Shown: positions 35,972 to 44,010 of the stretch, one piece after another
Numbering within the stretch: the stretch's first letter is position 1
Layout: the number at the start of each line of letters is the position of its first letter
DNA from: Streptomyces sp. NBC_01197
GTDB lineage: Bacteria > Actinomycetota > Actinomycetes > Streptomycetales > Streptomycetaceae
Assembly (NCBI RefSeq): GCF_036010505.1
Contig: NZ_CP108569.1
Location: 3,607,001-3,671,000, forward strand
DNA length: 64,000 nt
Direction of reading: 5' to 3'
Made by a program: the position numbers and the translations under genes
Notes under the pieces: generated by a model
What the model saw: the letters and a program-made list of their open reading frames with translations, nothing else
The model's database searches: none
What the model was told of the DNA's origin: nothing

Positions 35972-36005
35972 CGCATATCCGGTCGGAGGCTCGCCGTGAG
36001 GAAGT

Positions 36006-36011
36006 TAGGAT
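36006..36011 (+). promoter_or_regulatory. Leaderless -10 box for metG
   Basis: TAGGAT lies 7 nt before ATG 36019; no ribosome binding site is present. Confidence 0.5.
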
Positions 36012-36018
36012 TTCGACC

Positions 36019-37632
36019 ATGGCGGCCACTGGATCCGAGAAGCAGGGGACGAACGCGTACTACGTATCGACCCCCATTTACTACGTCAACGACGCTCCTC
36101 ACCTGGGCCACGCCTACACGACCGTTGCAGGGGACGTGCTCACGCGCTGGCACCGTCAGCGCGGCGAGAAGGTGTGGTACCTCACCGGCACGGACGAGCA
36201 CGGTCAGAAGATCATGCGCACGGCCGAGGCGAACAACGTCACACCGCAGGAGTGGTGCGACAAGCTCGTCGAAGAGTCCTGGAAGCCCCTCTGGGAGCAT
36301 CTGAACATCGCGAACGACGACTTCATCCGGACGACGGAGAAGCGGCACACGGACCGTGTGCAGGAATTCGTGCAGGACCTGTTCGACAAGGACGAGATTT
36401 ACAAGGGCGGGTACGAAGGCCCGTACTGTGTGGGCTGCGAGGAGTACAAGCTCCCCGGCGACCTGATCGAGGGCGGGCCCGACTTCCCCGGTCAGAAGCT
36501 GTGCCCGATCCACAAGAAGCCGGTGGAGATCCTCAAGGAGGAGAACTACTTCTTCAAGCTGAGCGAGTACGGCCCGAAGCTGCTGGAGTTCTACGAGGCA
36601 AACCCGGGCTTCATCCAGCCGGAGTCGGCGCGCAACGAGGTCGTGAACTTCGTACGGCAGGGGCTTCAGGACCTGTCCATCTCGCGCTCCACCTTCGACT
36701 GGGGCGTCCCGGTGCCGTGGGACGAGAAGCACGTCATCTACGTCTGGGTGGACGCGCTCCTCAACTACGCCACGGCCGTCGGCTACGGCGCCAACCAGCA
36801 GAAGTTCGACGAGACGTTCCCGGCCGACGTGCACCTGGTCGGCAAGGACATCCTGCGCTTCCACGCGGTGATCTGGCCCGCGATGCTGATGGCCCAGGGC
36901 CTGCCGGTGCCCGGCAGGGTCGCGGCGAACGGCTGGCTGATGGTCGGCGGCGAGAAGATGTCGAAGTCGAACCTGACCGGCATCAAGCCGCAGGACCTGA
37001 CCTCGCACTTCGGCGTGGACGCCTACCGCTGGTACTTCCTGCGGGCCATCGCCTTCGGCAGCGACGGATCGTTCTCCTGGGAGGACTTCTCCGCCCGCTA
37101 CACCTCCGAGCTGGCGAACGACTACGGCAACCTCGCCTCGCGCGTGGCCGCCATGGTCGGCAAGTACTACGGCGGAGCCCTGCCGGCCGCTGAGGCCCCG
37201 GGCGCCGCCGAGCAGGCCGTCCAGGAGGGTCTGGCCAAGGCGGTCGCCGAGTCCGACCGGATGATCGGCGAGGAGCTGGACTTCCAGGGCGGCATCCTGG
37301 CGGTCTTCGACTTCGTGAAGCAGGTCAACGGCTACATCACGGAGCAGGAGCCGTGGAAGGTCGCCAAGGACGAGTCGCCGGAGGGCCGGGCCCGCCTCGC
37401 GACCATCCTCTACACGGCGGCCGAGTCGCTGCGCGGTGTCGCGGTCCTGCTGAACGCGGTGATGCCGGAGACCTCGCAGAGCCTGTGGGACTCACTGGGT
37501 GCCGAGGCGGGTCTCGGCGCGCTGGCGGACCAGAAGCTCCAGGAGTCGGGCGTCTGGGGCAGGCTCCCGGCCGGCGCGACGGTGACGAAGGGCGCGGTGC
37601 TGTTCCCGCGCCTGGAAGAGAAGCCCGCGTAG
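36019..37632 (+). CDS. metG: Methionyl-tRNA synthetase
   Basis: A 537-residue class I aminoacyl-tRNA synthetase that charges tRNA-Met. The HIGH motif appears as HLGH (28-31) and the KMSKS loop as KMSKS near 313. A knuckle with CVGCEEYK and LCPIHKK (zinc-type, about 135-175) interrupts the catalytic domain. The C-terminal half is the helical anticodon-binding domain; the extra C-terminal dimerisation domain of longer MetRS is absent, as in other actinobacteria. Start ATG is leaderless by position. A very strong 18-bp hairpin follows. It is an essential gene and a useful marker of core, origin-proximal chromosome together with aspS. Confidence 0.97.
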   Translation: MAATGSEKQGTNAYYVSTPIYYVNDAPHLGHAYTTVAGDVLTRWHRQRGEKVWYLTGTDEHGQKIMRTAEANNVTPQEWCDKLVEESWKPLWEHLNIANDDFIRTTEKRHTDRVQEFVQDLFDKDEIYKGGYEGPYCVGCEEYKLPGDLIEGGPDFPGQKLCPIHKKPVEILKEENYFFKLSEYGPKLLEFYEANPGFIQPESARNEVVNFVRQGLQDLSISRSTFDWGVPVPWDEKHVIYVWVDALLNYATAVGYGANQQKFDETFPADVHLVGKDILRFHAVIWPAMLMAQGLPVPGRVAANGWLMVGGEKMSKSNLTGIKPQDLTSHFGVDAYRWYFLRAIAFGSDGSFSWEDFSARYTSELANDYGNLASRVAAMVGKYYGGALPAAEAPGAAEQAVQEGLAKAVAESDRMIGEELDFQGGILAVFDFVKQVNGYITEQEPWKVAKDESPEGRARLATILYTAAESLRGVAVLLNAVMPETSQSLWDSLGAEAGLGALADQKLQESGVWGRLPAGATVTKGAVLFPRLEEKPA

Positions 37633-37658
37633 TCCACGCACGACCGCTGCACGTCAGA

Positions 37659-37698
37659 CAGGAAGGCCCGGAACCGACCACGGTTCCGGGCCTTCCTG
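37659..37698. terminator. 18-bp perfect hairpin between metG and the Uma2 gene
   Basis: Arms 37659-37676 (begins CAGGAAGGCCCGG) and exact complement 37681-37698 with a 4-nt ACCA loop, followed by TTT. It lies between convergent genes and is the strongest stem noticed in the window. Confidence 0.88.
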
Positions 37699-37738
37699 TT
37701 TCCGGCTGCCGGCTTCGGTCGCCTGATTCCGGCCGGCG

Positions 37739-38326
37739 TCAGCGCACCCAGGCCATGAGCGGCGCGGTGTCCAGCTCGATCCCGACCGGGCCGGGCAGCT
37801 CCACAGTCTTCCCGAACGGAACCGTGACCACCTGTTCGTACCGCACGCCGTCCGGCTGAGAGTGGACCTTGACTTCGCCCGCCTCACGGTCGATCAGCAG
37901 ATAGACGGGGATTCCGGTCTCGGCGTAGGCACGCGGCTTCTCCACCCGGTCCCGGCGGTCGGTGTCGGCGTCGTTCGAAGTGACCTCGACCACCATCAGC
38001 ACACCGTCCGCACTGGCCCACTCACCCTGGCCGACAAAGGTGTCGATCGGAGCGAGAGCCCCATCGGGGCGGGCGTTGCCCTTGCGGTAAGTCTCGATCC
38101 GCAGCCCCTGCTCCGGAAAGAGCCAGAGCCCCTGCTCCGACTGGATACAGACCTGCGTCAGCCAGGCGATGATCCGCCCGTGGTCCCCGTCCGGCACATC
38201 CTTGACCCCCAACTTCCCGTTCACGAACTCCAGACGCACCGCTTCGTCGGTTCGTATGGCATGCCGGGCCAGCTCCTCGAAGACTTCCTGGGTCAGGACT
38301 GTGGACCGCTCTTCCACGACGCTCAC
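37739..38326 (-). CDS. Uma2-family PD-(D/E)xK nuclease-fold protein
   Basis: A 195-residue protein of the Uma2/DUF820 family, restriction-endonuclease-like fold. Landmarks are EVFEELARHA, RLEFVNGKLGVK, RPDGALAP (PD of the motif), DGVLMVVEVTSNDADTDRRD (the E-x-T part) and a final GIPVYLLIDRE strand. Such proteins are abundant in Streptomyces and cyanobacteria, often in multiple copies; their biological role is unsettled. GTG 38326 is preferred because GGAGGAG sits 6 nt upstream; an ATG 10 codons earlier is an alternative. It stands alone, facing metG across the 18-bp hairpin. Confidence 0.8.
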   Translation of the reverse strand: MSVVEERSTVLTQEVFEELARHAIRTDEAVRLEFVNGKLGVKDVPDGDHGRIIAWLTQVCIQSEQGLWLFPEQGLRIETYRKGNARPDGALAPIDTFVGQGEWASADGVLMVVEVTSNDADTDRRDRVEKPRAYAETGIPVYLLIDREAGEVKVHSQPDGVRYEQVVTVPFGKTVELPGPVGIELDTAPLMAWVR

Positions 38327-38392
38327 CACGGTCTCCTCCGGGGTCGGTATCACCATCCAGACTACGGGTCGCCGCACCACGCGGGCGCGGCT

Positions 38393-39196
38393 TCACTCCC
38401 CCAGCATCGAGGCGTCCCCCATGGCCACCACCGGCTTCTTCGCCGGGTCCAGCCAGCGCAGCAGTTCCTTCATCCGGTCCTCCGGCAGGGAGACACAGCC
38501 GTGCGTGGGGCCGCCGTGGTCGACGTGGAACCAGACGCCGCCACCCCGGTTCTTGCCCATCGGGCGGGTCCAGTCGAGCGGGGTGGTGCCGGGCTTGTGG
38601 TTGTAATTGATCGCCACCACGTAGTCGAAGGCGCCCGCCAGCGACTCCCCCTCGAAGCCGGTGCCCGCGGCGACGAAGGAGGACCCGTGGTCGTACGGCA
38701 GGCGGGTGCCGGGGTCCGCCTTGCGGCCGCCCGCGTCGGTCAGGCCGTAGACCCCGGCGGGTGAGTGGAGATCGCCCTGGTAGTGCTTCTCCGTCCAGCC
38801 GTGCAGGGCGTTGTGCGCGGGCCACGGTTCGGAGACCGGCTCCCAGCCCTTGACCGGGTCGCGGACGTAGAGGAGGACGGTGGAGCGGCTGGAGTCCGGT
38901 GCGTCGCCGGTGACGACGACGGCCTGCCGGGCGGACTCCGGGATCTCGGCCAGGGTCTTGGGACCGAGCGCCGGGATCTCCTTGACCTCCTGAAGCTCCG
39001 CGGCCCGGCGCAGCTGCGGCCCCGCCGCGGGCGTCGCGGGTGCTGCGGGTGGCCCGCCGTGACCGCTGTTGTCCTCGACCGCCCGGGCCGGGGCTGTCGT
39101 GTGTCCCGGGAACCCCGAGCACCCGGAGAGCACCAACCCACCGGTGACCAGGGCGGTCGCGACGAGCGCACCTCTGGGAAGTCGGCGAAGAGACAT
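38393..39196 (-). CDS. L,D-transpeptidase (YkuD-like) lipoprotein
   Basis: A 267-residue exported protein. A signal peptide with lipobox LVLSGC suggests lipid anchoring at about Cys26. A Pro/Ala-rich linker follows, then a catalytic domain ending in HVDHGGPTHGCVSLPEDR with nucleophile Cys234 and two upstream His, the YkuD/ErfK active-site pattern (H-G-x-x-H-G-C). L,D-transpeptidases make 3-3 peptidoglycan cross-links. The region between is more divergent than classical Ldt enzymes, so an amidase- or L,D-carboxypeptidase-like role is possible. ATG 39196 has GAAAGG upstream. Confidence 0.8.
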   Translation of the reverse strand: MSLRRLPRGALVATALVTGGLVLSGCSGFPGHTTAPARAVEDNSGHGGPPAAPATPAAGPQLRRAAELQEVKEIPALGPKTLAEIPESARQAVVVTGDAPDSSRSTVLLYVRDPVKGWEPVSEPWPAHNALHGWTEKHYQGDLHSPAGVYGLTDAGGRKADPGTRLPYDHGSSFVAAGTGFEGESLAGAFDYVVAINYNHKPGTTPLDWTRPMGKNRGGGVWFHVDHGGPTHGCVSLPEDRMKELLRWLDPAKKPVVAMGDASMLGE

Positions 39197-39598
39197 GTAC
39201 GAGCCTTTCGTTTTCACGTCGGATCACGTCGGATCACGTCGGGTGCACGCCGTTAACGACTGGTGTGTGCCGTAGGCGTCGTTTCATTTCGGGGAACCCT
39301 GCGAGTTCCCCCCGAGGCTGGCCTCTTTATGGAAGTTGGTGTGACGCTCGATGATGGTTTCGACGTCGTTGTCGCGAATCACGCCCTGCCCAGGGCCTGC
39401 CGTACGACCGGGGCAAGCCGTGCGCGTCGCCGCGCACACACAGACCTGCCGGAATCAGATTGCCCCTGTCCTGGGTCTTGATCTTGACCGGCACGCCGAT
39501 CAGTCCGTCGTACTGGTCCGTCCCGTTCGGCTCACGGCAGGAATCCGGGAGCCGTGGGACGGGGCATGAAGCTGACGGCCCAGAACCTGACAGCACAG
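39197..39598. other. Gene-poor stretch with possible coding debris
   Basis: No intact gene is visible. On the minus strand, one frame (about 39515-39440) reads YDGLIGVPVKIKTQDRG and, after a shift, another (about 39385-39320) reads RDNDVETIIERHTNFHKEA. Both look like ordinary protein rather than GC-driven noise but cannot be joined without a frameshift. The region is slightly less GC-rich than its neighbours. It may be a decayed gene; the family is not recognised with confidence. Confidence 0.35.
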
Positions 39599-39630
39599 AA
39601 CAGCCCCCGGTTGCTCCACCGGGGGCTGTT
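39599..39630. terminator. 13-bp perfect hairpin downstream of aspS
   Basis: Arms AACAGCCCCCGGT (39599-39611) and exact complement (39618-39630), 6-nt loop, beyond the aspS stop on the minus strand and just past the parS site. Confidence 0.75.
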
Positions 39631-39635
39631 GCGCT

Positions 39636-39649
39636 GTTTCACGTGAAAC
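39636..39649. other. parS: parS: ParB-binding centromere-like site
   Basis: GTTTCACGTGAAAC is a perfect 14-bp palindrome identical to the Streptomyces parS consensus. ParB loads here and spreads to organise the origin region for segregation with ParA. It lies 9 bp after the aspS stop codon, between that stop and the 13-bp terminator hairpin, so it is intergenic. Most parS sites cluster near oriC, which supports an origin-proximal location for the window. Identification rests on exact match to the known motif; no other copy was noticed. Confidence 0.88.
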
Positions 39650-39658
39650 CGGCAGGCG

Positions 39659-41479
39659 CTACTTCTCCTGCTTCTCCTGCGAGGGCTGCGTGTCCTGCTT
39701 CTCCTGCGTGTGCTTCGGCGGGGCCGGGGGCTTGCGCAGCTGGATGTTCAGCTCGCGCAGCCGGGTCTCGTCGAGCACCGTGGGGGCGCCCATCATCAGG
39801 TCCTGCGCATTGCCGTTGAGCGGGAAAGCGATCGTCTCGCGGATGTTCGGCTCGTCGGCGAGCAGCATCACGATGCGGTCCACACCCGGGGCGATGCCAC
39901 CGTGCGGCGGGGCGCCGAGGCGGAAGGCGCGCAGCATTCCGGCGAACTCGTGCTCCACGGTCTCCCGGTCGTAGCCGGCGATCTCGAACGCCTTGAGCAT
40001 CAGCTCGGGCTCGTGGTTACGGATGGCGCCCGAGGAGAGCTCGATGCCGTTGCAGACGATGTCGTACTGGTACGCCAGGATGGCGAGCGGGTCCTTCTCC
40101 TCCAGGTCGGCATAGCCGCCCTGGGGCATCGAGAAGGGGTTGTGCGAGAAGTCGATCTTGCCGGTCTCCTCGTCCCTCTCGTACATCGGGAAGTCGACGA
40201 TCCAGCAGAACCGGAACACGTCCTCCTCGAAGTGTCCGGCGCGCTTGGCCGCCTCGACGCGGACCCCGGACATGATCTTGGAGACCTCTTCGAACTCGCC
40301 CGCGCCGAAGAAGACCGCGTGGCCGGGCTTGAGCTCCAGACGCTCGGTGAGCGCCGTGATGTCGGAGTCGGAGAGGAACTTGGCGATCGGTCCGGCGAGC
40401 GTGCCGTCGTCACCGACACGCACCCAGGCCAGACCCTTCGCGCCCTGCTCGACGGCGTACGCACCGAGGCCGTCGAAGAACTTCCGGGACTGGCCCGCGG
40501 TGTCCGGGACGGGCAGCGCGCGGACGTGCTTGCCCGAGAAGGCCTTGAAGCCGGAGTCGGCGAAGACGTCCGAGACATCGACCAGTTCGAGCCGGGCGCG
40601 CAGGTCGGGCTTGTCGTTGCCGTACTTCAGCATCGACTCGCGGAACGGGATCCGCGGGAACGGCGAGGTGACGTGGCGGCCGTTGCCGAACTCCTCGAAG
40701 AGTTCGGTCATCAGCTTCTCGATCGGGCCGAAGACGTCCTCCTGCTCGACGAAGCTCATCTCGACGTCGAGCTGGTAGAACTCGCCCGGCGAGCGGTCCG
40801 CGCGGGCGTCCTCGTCGCGGAAGCAGGGCGCGATCTGGAAGTAGCGGTCGAAGCCCGAGATCATCAGCAGCTGCTTGAACTGCTGCGGGGCCTGCGGGAG
40901 CGCGTAGAACTTGCCCGGGTTGAGCCGGGACGGCACCACGAAGTCACGGGCGCCCTCGGGGGAGGTCGCGGTGAGGATCGGGGTCGCCATCTCGTTGAAG
41001 CCGAGCGCGACCATCTTCGAGCGGATCGAGGCGATCACCGAGGAACGCAGCATGATGTTGCGGTGCATCCGCTCGCGGCGCAGGTCGAGGAAGCGGTACT
41101 CCAGACGCCGCTCCTCGTTGACGCCGTCCTCGGCGTTGATGGTGAAGGGGAGCGGGGCGGCGGCACCGAGCACCTCGACCGCGCCGACCTCGATCTCGAC
41201 CTCGCCGGTCGGCAGTTCCGCGTTGACGTTCTCGGTGCCGCGTGCGGAGACCTTGCCGTCGATACGGACGACCGTCTCCTTGGTGACCTTGGAGAGCGCC
41301 TCGTTGGCGGGGGTGCCGGGGCGGGCGACGAGCTGCGTGATGCCGTAGTGGTCGCGCAGATCGATGAAGAGGATGCCGCCCAGGTCTCGGCGATTGTGCA
41401 GCCAGCCGCTCAGCCGGACGTCGGAGCCGACGTCGGAGGCGCGCAGTTCGCCGCACGTGTGGGACCTGTACCGATGCAT
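39659..41479 (-). CDS. aspS: Aspartyl-tRNA synthetase
   Basis: A 606-residue class II aminoacyl-tRNA synthetase. The N-terminal OB-fold anticodon-binding domain (about 1-105) starts [20 protein letters not shown]. Class II motifs follow: motif 2 region [19 protein letters not shown] and motif 3 [22 protein letters not shown]. The bacterial insertion domain lies between, and length fits bacterial AspRS. A Lys/Gln/Glu-rich tail ([18 protein letters not shown]) ends the protein. The start is the ATG at 41479. It is divergent from the SpoIIE-type phosphatase gene. The parS site and a hairpin lie immediately downstream. Confidence 0.97.
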
Positions 41480-41637
41480 CGTTCATCCAGTTCTTCGCGA
41501 GACAGGCGGGAAGGGTGTACTTCGCACCAGGGTACCGCCGGGCACACCGTGCCTTTACGCCTTTATCGGCCCGGCCCAGCAGCCCGGGAACGGCCGCATG
41601 GACGCACCCTGTGTGGCGGCTGCCGGTCGCACCTTCT

Positions 41638-41643
41638 TAAAGT
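41638..41643 (+). promoter_or_regulatory. Leaderless -10 box for the SpoIIE-type phosphatase gene
   Basis: TAAAGT lies 6 nt before ATG 41650; no ribosome binding site is visible. Confidence 0.5.
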
Positions 41644-41649
41644 GGGTCA

Positions 41650-44010
41650 ATGCGCACCGAGGACGTCCTGGCCGCCATCGCAACCGGCCTGTGGCGATGG
41701 GACAACACCGCCGGGATCGTCACGCTCGACGCGGAAGCCGCCCGGCTCCTCGGTCTGCCCGCCGAACCGACCACCTTGTCCGAGGCCGCCGCCCGTTCCC
41801 GGTTCCACCCCGTCGACTGGAACGAGGTCAACGGGACGGTGAATCTCGCGGTCGCCGAGGACTCCCTCGCCGAGGCCCGGCTGCGTATCGTGGACGAGAC
41901 GGGCCGGGTCGTGCGTACCGTACGCAGCCGCTCCAAGCCGCTGATCAGCCCAGACGGCTACATTCTGGTCGGCACCCTCCAGGAGGTCGCGGAGCCGCAG
42001 CCGGGCGACGCGGTCCATACCCCGATCACCGGTGACTGGCGCCGCTCCCGCGAGGCGTTCCTGCTGGACGCGGGGCGCGCGCTCGCCGAGGCCAGGTCCA
42101 CCGAGGAGGTGCTGCGGGTCGCCGCCTCGCTCTCCATGCCGGGGTTCGAGCCGGACGGCCTCGCGGTCTTCGGAATCACCGGCGACTGGCTGACGGTCAT
42201 CGGGCACCACGGTCACAACGCCGGCGAAAACGGCCTGCTGGCCGAATTCCCGATGAGTACGGAGGCGCAGTATCCCGCCGCCGAGGTCGCCAGGACGGGG
42301 CGGGCCATCTATCTGCCGACTCCGGAAACGTACGAGGAGCGCTACCCCCGGTACTGGCCCGCCGTGGCACCCCTCAACCGGCAGTCCTGGGCTTTCGTCC
42401 CTCTGGTCGACTCGGGGGTGACGATCGGTGCCTGGATGGCGGCCTTCGCCTACCCGGTCAGCTTCTCGCCCGACGAACGCTCGGTGCTGACGACGGTCGC
42501 CCGGATGCTGGCCCAGGCCCTCGCCCGCGCCGGGATCGCCGACAACGAGCGTGAGCTGTCGCTCGGGCTCCAGCGCTCGATGCTGCCGATGCTGGGCCCC
42601 CGCATCCCCGGGATGACGGTCGCCGCACGCTATGTACCGACCGGGGGCGGGCTCCAGGTCGGTGGCGACTGGTACGACGTGATCCCTCTGCCGGGGGGCG
42701 CCGCGCAGGAGGGCGGCAAGGGCGGCGGCCGGGTGGCGCTGGTGATCGGTGACGTCCAGGGGCATGACGTACGGGCCGCCGGGATGATGGGCCAGCTGCG
42801 GATCGCACTGCGCGCGTACGCGGCCGAGGGCCATCCCCCCGACGCTGTGCTCTCCCGGGCCTCCCGCTTCCTGTACGGCCTCACGGACACGTACGACCAG
42901 CGCGAATCCGACGAGGCGCCCACCCCGCGCTTCGCGACCTGTCTGTACATCGAGGTCGACCCGGCCACCGGCACGCTCGACATCGCCCGCGCGGGCCACC
43001 CCGACCCGACGGTCCGCACGACCGACGGGACGGTGCTGATGCGGCCCGCGGAGGGCGGGCTGCCGCTGGGCATCCATCCGGACACCGACTACCCGACGAC
43101 CCGGCTGGTGCTCCAGCCCGGCGAGACGCTGATGATGTGCACGGACGGGCTCATAGAGACCGGCGGCCATGATCTCGACACGGGCTGGGAGCGGATCCGC
43201 GGAACCCTGGAGCGGCACACCGGGGACAATCTGGAGACCCTTGCCGACGCACTGGTGCAGGCCGCGCACGGTCCGCCCGGGCACCATCACACCGGGCCGT
43301 TCTCCGACCGCCGCGAGGACGACATCGCCGTCCTGCTGATGTCCCGCGCGGGGGAGCCCGTACGGGTGGGCGCCACCCGGCACATCTCCCTGGCGATCGC
43401 ACAGGCCCAGCCGGAGCGCGTATCGGCGGCCCGCAGCCAGCTGCGGGACCTGCTGCACGACTGGGCGGACAGCGAACAGGTCGACTCGGCCGCGCTGATG
43501 GTCTCCGAGATGGCGACGAACGTCCTCATCCACACGGACGGCGACGCGACGCTGACCGCGGACGTCACCGGCGAGCCCGGCAGCCGGCGGCTGCGGGCCG
43601 AGGTCTCCGACGACAGTGACGAACTGCCGCACAAGCGGCGCCCCGGTGAGATGGCCTCGTCCGGCCGCGGGCTGCTGCTGATGGAGATGCTCGCGGACAT
43701 GTGGGGGGTGGATCCGCGGGGCTCCGGCAAGACGATCTGGTTCGAACTCTACGAGTCACGCGGCGAACCGAAGGACGGATCCGCCGGAGCCGCCGGGTCC
43801 GGCGAGCCGGGCGACGCCACCGAGGGACCGTCGTCCGATCTGCTGTCCGACTTCCTGGCCGAGCTCGCACCGGACGAACCGCTGGGGAGGGACGAGCCGC
43901 TGGGGACGGCGGAGTCCGGGCCGGCTCACGCGTCACCGCCCGCGTCGGATGCCGAGTCGGGTGCGGATCGTGGGCCGGCTCCCGGGTCCGGGACGGGCTC
44001 CGGCGGGTAG
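41650..44010 (+). CDS. PAS/GAF-SpoIIE phosphatase with C-terminal HATPase domain
   Basis: A 786-residue cytosolic signalling protein. In order: a PAS-like region (about 10-110), a GAF domain (about 145-290), a PP2C/SpoIIE phosphatase (about 305-560, with VGGDWYD near 337, DVQGHD near 367 and EDDIAVLL near 556), and an RsbW-like ATPase domain (about 580-705, with MATNVLIHTDG and GRGLLLMEML). A Pro/Ser/Glu-rich tail follows. Such proteins control anti-anti-sigma factors through opposing phosphatase and kinase modules, usually in stress or differentiation. The partner is not in the window. The 3' end overlaps the convergent permease gene by 85 bp. Confidence 0.88.
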   Translation: MRTEDVLAAIATGLWRWDNTAGIVTLDAEAARLLGLPAEPTTLSEAAARSRFHPVDWNEVNGTVNLAVAEDSLAEARLRIVDETGRVVRTVRSRSKPLISPDGYILVGTLQEVAEPQPGDAVHTPITGDWRRSREAFLLDAGRALAEARSTEEVLRVAASLSMPGFEPDGLAVFGITGDWLTVIGHHGHNAGENGLLAEFPMSTEAQYPAAEVARTGRAIYLPTPETYEERYPRYWPAVAPLNRQSWAFVPLVDSGVTIGAWMAAFAYPVSFSPDERSVLTTVARMLAQALARAGIADNERELSLGLQRSMLPMLGPRIPGMTVAARYVPTGGGLQVGGDWYDVIPLPGGAAQEGGKGGGRVALVIGDVQGHDVRAAGMMGQLRIALRAYAAEGHPPDAVLSRASRFLYGLTDTYDQRESDEAPTPRFATCLYIEVDPATGTLDIARAGHPDPTVRTTDGTVLMRPAEGGLPLGIHPDTDYPTTRLVLQPGETLMMCTDGLIETGGHDLDTGWERIRGTLERHTGDNLETLADALVQAAHGPPGHHHTGPFSDRREDDIAVLLMSRAGEPVRVGATRHISLAIAQAQPERVSAARSQLRDLLHDWADSEQVDSAALMVSEMATNVLIHTDGDATLTADVTGEPGSRRLRAEVSDDSDELPHKRRPGEMASSGRGLLLMEMLADMWGVDPRGSGKTIWFELYESRGEPKDGSAGAAGSGEPGDATEGPSSDLLSDFLAELAPDEPLGRDEPLGTAESGPAHASPPASDAESGADRGPAPGSGTGSGG

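Follow-up and report, generated by a model that had tools for sequence, protein, structure and literature searches.

The chromosomal parS sites of Streptomyces, as described for S. coelicolor and S. venezuelae, are copies of a 14-bp sequence that cluster near oriC, favor one side of it and accompany a parAB locus near dnaA. The published one-sided bias places 79.86% of parS sites to the right of oriC (PMC8743542). ChIP-seq peaks in S. venezuelae matched parS nearly throughout, with 16 parS sites predicted (PMC4852455); 17 bound sites were seen later, and ParB spread to 2.5–3 kb (PMC12511625). Noc and its palindromic sites (NBS) form a related system in that Noc is likewise a ParB-family protein. 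A separate point of reference is the intrinsic terminator of Streptomyces, for which published examples have the longest and most stable hairpins with 3–4 Us (PMC12207403). The parS site described here shares all the named features of the Streptomyces chromosomal sites, but it lies on the sparser side of the cluster at a distance of 116 kb, and its slot is confined to one clade.

The window (the whole 64-kb stretch of DNA analysed, C1:3607001–3671000) belongs to a genome of 7.71 Mb that was scanned as 2 contigs, of which C1 is 7.63 Mb. Its parS, GTTTCACGTGAAAC, is a perfect 14-bp palindrome at 39636–39649 that matches the motif with 0 mismatches and has no strand. A gap of 9 nt separates it from the stop codon of aspS (39659–41479, minus strand), which encodes an aspartate–tRNA ligase of 606 amino acids (NF001750, 794 bits against a cut-off of 443) whose close named relatives are from Streptomyces. 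The preliminary description of an exact, palindromic parS behind aspS thus holds. GTTTCACGTGAAAC is the sole match in the window when up to 3 mismatches are allowed; because shuffling predicts 0.82 such matches, only the exactness of the match is telling. Base composition predicts 2.4e-5 perfect copies in 64 kb and 0.003 in 7.7 Mb.

On the far side of parS from aspS, 5 nt beyond the site, lies a predicted aspS terminator hairpin with a 6-nt loop (39599–39630, minus strand). Visual inspection of its arms, 39599–39611 and 39618–39630, shows 13 complementary bases in each, of which 12 pair in the RNA fold; past a 2-nt bulge the fold continues with 8 further outer pairs, the outermost of which reach the last 2 nt of parS. 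The hairpin is stable (−45.8 kcal/mol, z −4.9). A consensus scan that requires a U-tract found no minus-strand terminator here, and Streptomyces terminators are U-poor in the published account cited above (PMC12207403). The earlier placement of parS between the aspS stop codon and the hairpin is confirmed.

Downstream of aspS, the next gene encodes an L,D-transpeptidase (YkuD) domain protein (38393–39217, minus strand); beyond it, Pfam matches identify a Uma2-family protein (37739–38380, minus strand) and a methionine–tRNA ligase (36019–37632, plus strand). A gene for a protein with GAF, SpoIIE and HATPase domains (41650–44010, plus strand) diverges from aspS; it and the L,D-transpeptidase gene were also named from Pfam. 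The minus strand at 39218–39598, which separates the hairpin from the L,D-transpeptidase gene, contains protein-like pieces in two frames, partly common to a related genome, G022. Two peptides from this stretch had no match in Pfam, and it may be a decayed gene. No RNA family reached its gathering score at 36000–44000.

A scan of the entire genome located 14 perfect and 3 one-mismatch parS copies, all on C1 between 3,513,090 and 4,003,643, and 0 copies of the reversed pattern. Relative to dnaA (C1 3,762,238–3,762,723), the 17 copies span −249 to +241 kb and the 14 perfect ones −249 to +67 kb. The copy behind aspS is among the perfect ones, as a motif scan plotted against dnaA had been expected to reveal. 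It is situated 115.8 kb from dnaA, on the flank opposite parAB, where copies are sparser. The view of the window as origin-proximal stands as well: the right edge of the window is ~91 kb from dnaA, with oriC itself outside. The best ParB match is encoded at 3,768,926 on C1, beside dnaA, and a ParA-type ATPase frame precedes parB, so the replicon carries the partition genes that the preliminary description had called for. The ParB protein passes the TIGR00180 cut-off. Because the several ParA family matches all fall under curated cut-offs, the name ParA rests on the type of the protein and its place. Three further ParB-type domains are encoded at 5.36–5.37 Mb, away from any parS copy.

Short motifs recur by chance, and CACGTG cores such as the one in parS are bound by various regulators. 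A chance palindrome, or the site of another regulator that happens to match parS, is nonetheless highly improbable: 14 copies were found against 0.003 expected per genome, all near dnaA, and the site is present in relatives. Among PDB chains, the ParB encoded beside dnaA has matches to those of Spo0J, ParB and Noc; in alignment to the Noc chains its R and G fall where Noc has Q and R. These two residues (R173 and G201 in Caulobacter numbering) are described as absolutely conserved in ParB orthologs (PMC7383237). At the third specificity position the protein has R, where Noc has K; R at this position is counted as permissive for the other site type (PMC7383237). The protein carries the parS-type specificity residues R and G, as placed through alignment to Noc chains. 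In this it differs from Noc, and the sequence in the window has the parS form.

These observations make it very probable that 39636–39649 is an ordinary outer chromosomal parS and a predicted loading site for ParB. From published work in Streptomyces, ParB–CTP dimers would bind the site and then close into clamps that slide ~2.5–3 kb in either direction, a range that takes in aspS and the L,D-transpeptidase gene. ParB at parS would bring in SMC, and ParA would move the parS-loaded ParB. On the flank opposite parAB, this outer copy would carry the loading zone out to ~116 kb from dnaA. The position between the aspS stop codon and the hairpin would keep the copy outside coding sequence and away from promoters.

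The motif is widespread. All 24 Streptomyces genomes of a set picked for few contigs contain 8–27 perfect copies, as do all 13 genomes of a family sample with 4–22 (two of them members of the genus); at least one perfect copy occurs in 20 of 30 genomes of a class sample that includes the same two members. The reversed pattern was absent (0 copies) from all three samples. Occupancy of the aspS slot is far more restricted. A search for aspS succeeded in 60 of the 61 genus genomes and in additional named loci; after loci below 70% identity, and L022 and G032 (not flanked on both sides), were dropped, 101 loci were classed. A parS with 0–1 mismatch lies within 100 nt downstream of aspS in 14 of them and within 120 nt upstream in 28, five have a one-mismatch copy only, inside aspS, and 54, including one Pseudonocardia outgroup, have no parS at aspS. 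On a FastTree aspS tree, the downstream state needs 2 changes, one in a main clade that contains the strain of the window (some of its forks being open) and one in S. endophytica (L040) alone; the upstream state lies in another large clade and needs 5 changes. In the main clade 13 of 19 rows have the downstream parS and 6 lack it. Those 13 comprise all 11 rows of one starred clade together with the window's strain and its sister G022.

Because parS is absent from 6 of the 19 clade rows and 54 of the 101 loci, it is not indispensable at aspS. The proposal that a segregation site is seated in the 3′ gap of aspS is supported by the cluster around dnaA and by parAB, but the arrangement is specific to a clade and is not fixed at aspS. 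The site could be a passenger, acquired within a single clade, that performs no measurable function and is tolerated since other copies suffice. Its absence from most aspS loci, its location on the opposite side of aspS in another clade and the one-mismatch form in 7 of the 13 clade rows (the same T-to-C change each time; the other 6 are perfect) would fit such a history. We consider it unlikely, since every row of the starred clade retains parS while spacing and flanks change; the distance from parS to the aspS stop codon varies from 9 to 55 nt among clade relatives. Presence of parS was the criterion for including the 13 aligned rows, so the sameness of the site among them partly reflects that selection. 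S. gardneri and S. lateritius, which we take to be near S. venezuelae, have no parS within ~3 kb of aspS; for this reason the published S. venezuelae ChIP data probably miss the aspS slot.

Several aspS loci show peculiarities of their own. The one-mismatch form GTTTCACGTGGAAC occurs inside the aspS frame, at aspS nucleotide 231, in L034, L035, L055, L161, L164 and L173. Across L161–L200 (37 stretches of 18–20 kb and three of ~10 kb), the sole other site with 0–1 mismatch is in G055, 7.8 kb away, and the named locus L062 has a parS 2.2 kb upstream. In G011 aspS is ~1.1 Mb away from dnaA, and in G043 it is found on the side of dnaA opposite to the usual one; the aspS locus lacks parS in both genomes. 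In G004 (C1:3693143–3694905), aspS is in two overlapping pieces in separate open frames, a frame break or a sequence error.

The junction between parS and the hairpin raises the question of whether the two form one element. Here the locus resembles Streptomyces intrinsic terminators in having a long, GC-rich hairpin with few Us behind aspS; it differs in that parS adjoins or forms the foot of the stem, and termination at this position is a prediction. In the 13 clade members with a downstream parS (L040 excluded), AG comes directly after the site and leads into a GC-rich stem. The stem is followed by GTTTC in 8 of the 13, which can pair with GAAAC of parS at the foot of the hairpin; the tail of L021 and of G055 has the sequence GTTTCACGTG. 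It is tempting to speculate that the site both loads ParB and forms part of the aspS terminator, with GAAAC as stem foot and the matching GTTTC as a short U-run, such that termination would shield the loading site from RNA polymerase. The proposed structure is paired in 86.4% of cells across the 13 sequences, compared with 34–48% for slid partners; both-side changes occur in 16 cells against 4.9 after shuffling, and the covariation score is 0.203 against 0.136, with 0 of 500 shuffles as high for either measure. Folding energies for the joints of G018, G022 and G055 range from −45.2 to −47.2 kcal/mol.

Other results weigh against such a composite. The structure was drawn from the very sequences that were scored. 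Two further covariation measures fail to exceed the shuffled values: 3 pairs have both-side changes against 1.5 (52 of 500 shuffles as high), and further pair types number 9 against 9.0 (478 of 500). The both-side changes are confined to those 3 pairs, none within parS, and pairing of the outer helix reaches only 78.7% of cells. An 8-nt insertion separates parS from the inner stem in the window's strain and G022, and L040, which has parS but belongs to another clade, has no such hairpin. Joints in which parS forms the foot of a terminator were also considered as a general class, which the counts do not bear out: they occur at 13 of 127 perfect parS sites and at 243 of 3200 gene-end positions (p = 0.24), an earlier pass likewise found few, and the window's own parS is not among the 13. 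Because foot-type joints are not enriched at parS, the aspS joint may only reflect the place of parS behind a gene. We regard a dual role at aspS as a tentative possibility, and an ordinary outer parS as the preferred reading of 39636–39649.

A position behind a gene is common for parS. We compared the origin regions of 8 genomes, 200 kb each with ~125 kb taken on the side away from parAB, using home-made gene calls whose starts are unreliable. Among 140 sites with 0 or 1 mismatch, 105 lie on the parAB side and 35 on the opposite side, which by the usual gene order would be the dnaN side; in the window's own genome 7 of 17 lie on that opposite side. The excess agrees with the published right-of-oriC bias, the sameness of side being our own reading. 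Only 20 of the 140 sites fall inside called genes. In 19 of the 34 intergenic slots a called 3′ end is no more than 80 nt away, where 27% would be expected, and the slots favor gaps between convergent genes (13 of 34, against 14% of intergenic bases) over gaps between divergent genes (5 of 34, against 32.5%). Gaps between tandem genes show no lean of parS toward the 3′ side (29 of 55).

Slots near +5.0, +5.2, +10 and +19 kb on the parAB side are used in all 8 regions and that at +8.3 kb in 7, compared with 3 for the slot downstream of aspS and 2 for the slot upstream. aspS is not claimed as a special place for parS, with 34 intergenic slots among 167–180 called genes per 200 kb; by rough arithmetic, two slots flanking one gene are unremarkable when 8 genomes use 34. 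In a slot ~68.5 kb from dnaA (G000 C1:3693929, in L203), the TGA within parS is the called stop codon in 5 of 8 genomes by the home-made calls (G000, G004, G006, G012 and G018).

The same regions contain a second type of association. At eighteen of the 127 perfect parS sites, parS forms the middle of an inverted repeat whose arms each extend at least 6 bp, and up to 21 bp, beyond the site. Shuffling right flanks among sites gave a mean of 0.58 and a maximum of 4 in 2000 shuffles. In the 1.6 Mb of origin DNA from these 8 species, perfect palindromes without a loop number 21 at arm lengths of 13 bp or more, and 18 of them are centred on parS, as are 8 of the 10 whose arms reach 18 bp or more; these are not independent, many being one slot in several species. 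For 17 of the 18 parS sites with long repeats, a called gene end is located no more than 110 nt upstream, compared with 64 of 109 other perfect sites (Fisher test, p = 0.003, ignoring shared descent). Long repeats are not general, since G049 has none with at least 6 extra pairs and G035 has one. Outside the genus they are rare in the sample, with 3 of 58 parS sites having repeats at least 6 bp longer, a raw count, uncontrolled by shuffling, over 33 of 34 loci (L344 left out; L319, which is of the genus, dropped). At 5.6 kb from dnaA, parS centres a 34-bp perfect palindrome (L206:19907–19920; G000 C1:3756907) in a slot that only the window's genome uses among the 8.

The parAB-side slot ~19 kb from dnaA was matched in 61 of 61 genomes, and the best 30 of the 61 were taken as loci, 29 with two parS copies in the searched part. 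Among these 29, at least 6 extra paired bases flank the second copy in 23 and the first copy in 14. The stems around the second copy differ between species yet pair in 246 of 290 cells (shuffled 181, sd 5.5, max 207); around the first copy, 209 of 290 cells are paired (shuffled 140, sd 7.6, max 164). When seven hairpins or joints were folded, five gave z values of −5.9 to −9.8, that of G055 gave −4.7 and one weak copy gave −1.5. The long palindromes may instead be of neutral origin, having arisen by template switching at parS. Their concentration behind gene ends speaks against this account, with the qualification that the test of placement ignores shared descent.

Taken at the level of the genus, the statistics leave evenly poised the proposal that some Streptomyces parS sites (~1 in 7 of the 127 sampled) are built into terminator hairpins, as the apex of the palindrome or, at aspS, as the foot. 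The stem would be kept by compensating changes, and one element would both end transcription and load ParB in a transcription-quiet spot. Among papers in an open-licence collection, including PMC2864571, PMC7022226, PMC13245405 and PMC8743542, none was found whose listing joins parS to terminators. The union of some Streptomyces parS sites with terminator-like hairpins, as suggested by sequence statistics and covariation, might be new.

The parS of the window adds one mapped, clade-specific site to a well-known system, and the wider lead from inverted repeats matters more than this site itself. If the hairpins centred on parS are terminators, centromere sites and transcription termination would have evolved together. 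Such a relationship would help explain the preference of Streptomyces parS for convergent gene ends, and individual sites would then allow tests of how RNA polymerase conflicts with ParB loading.
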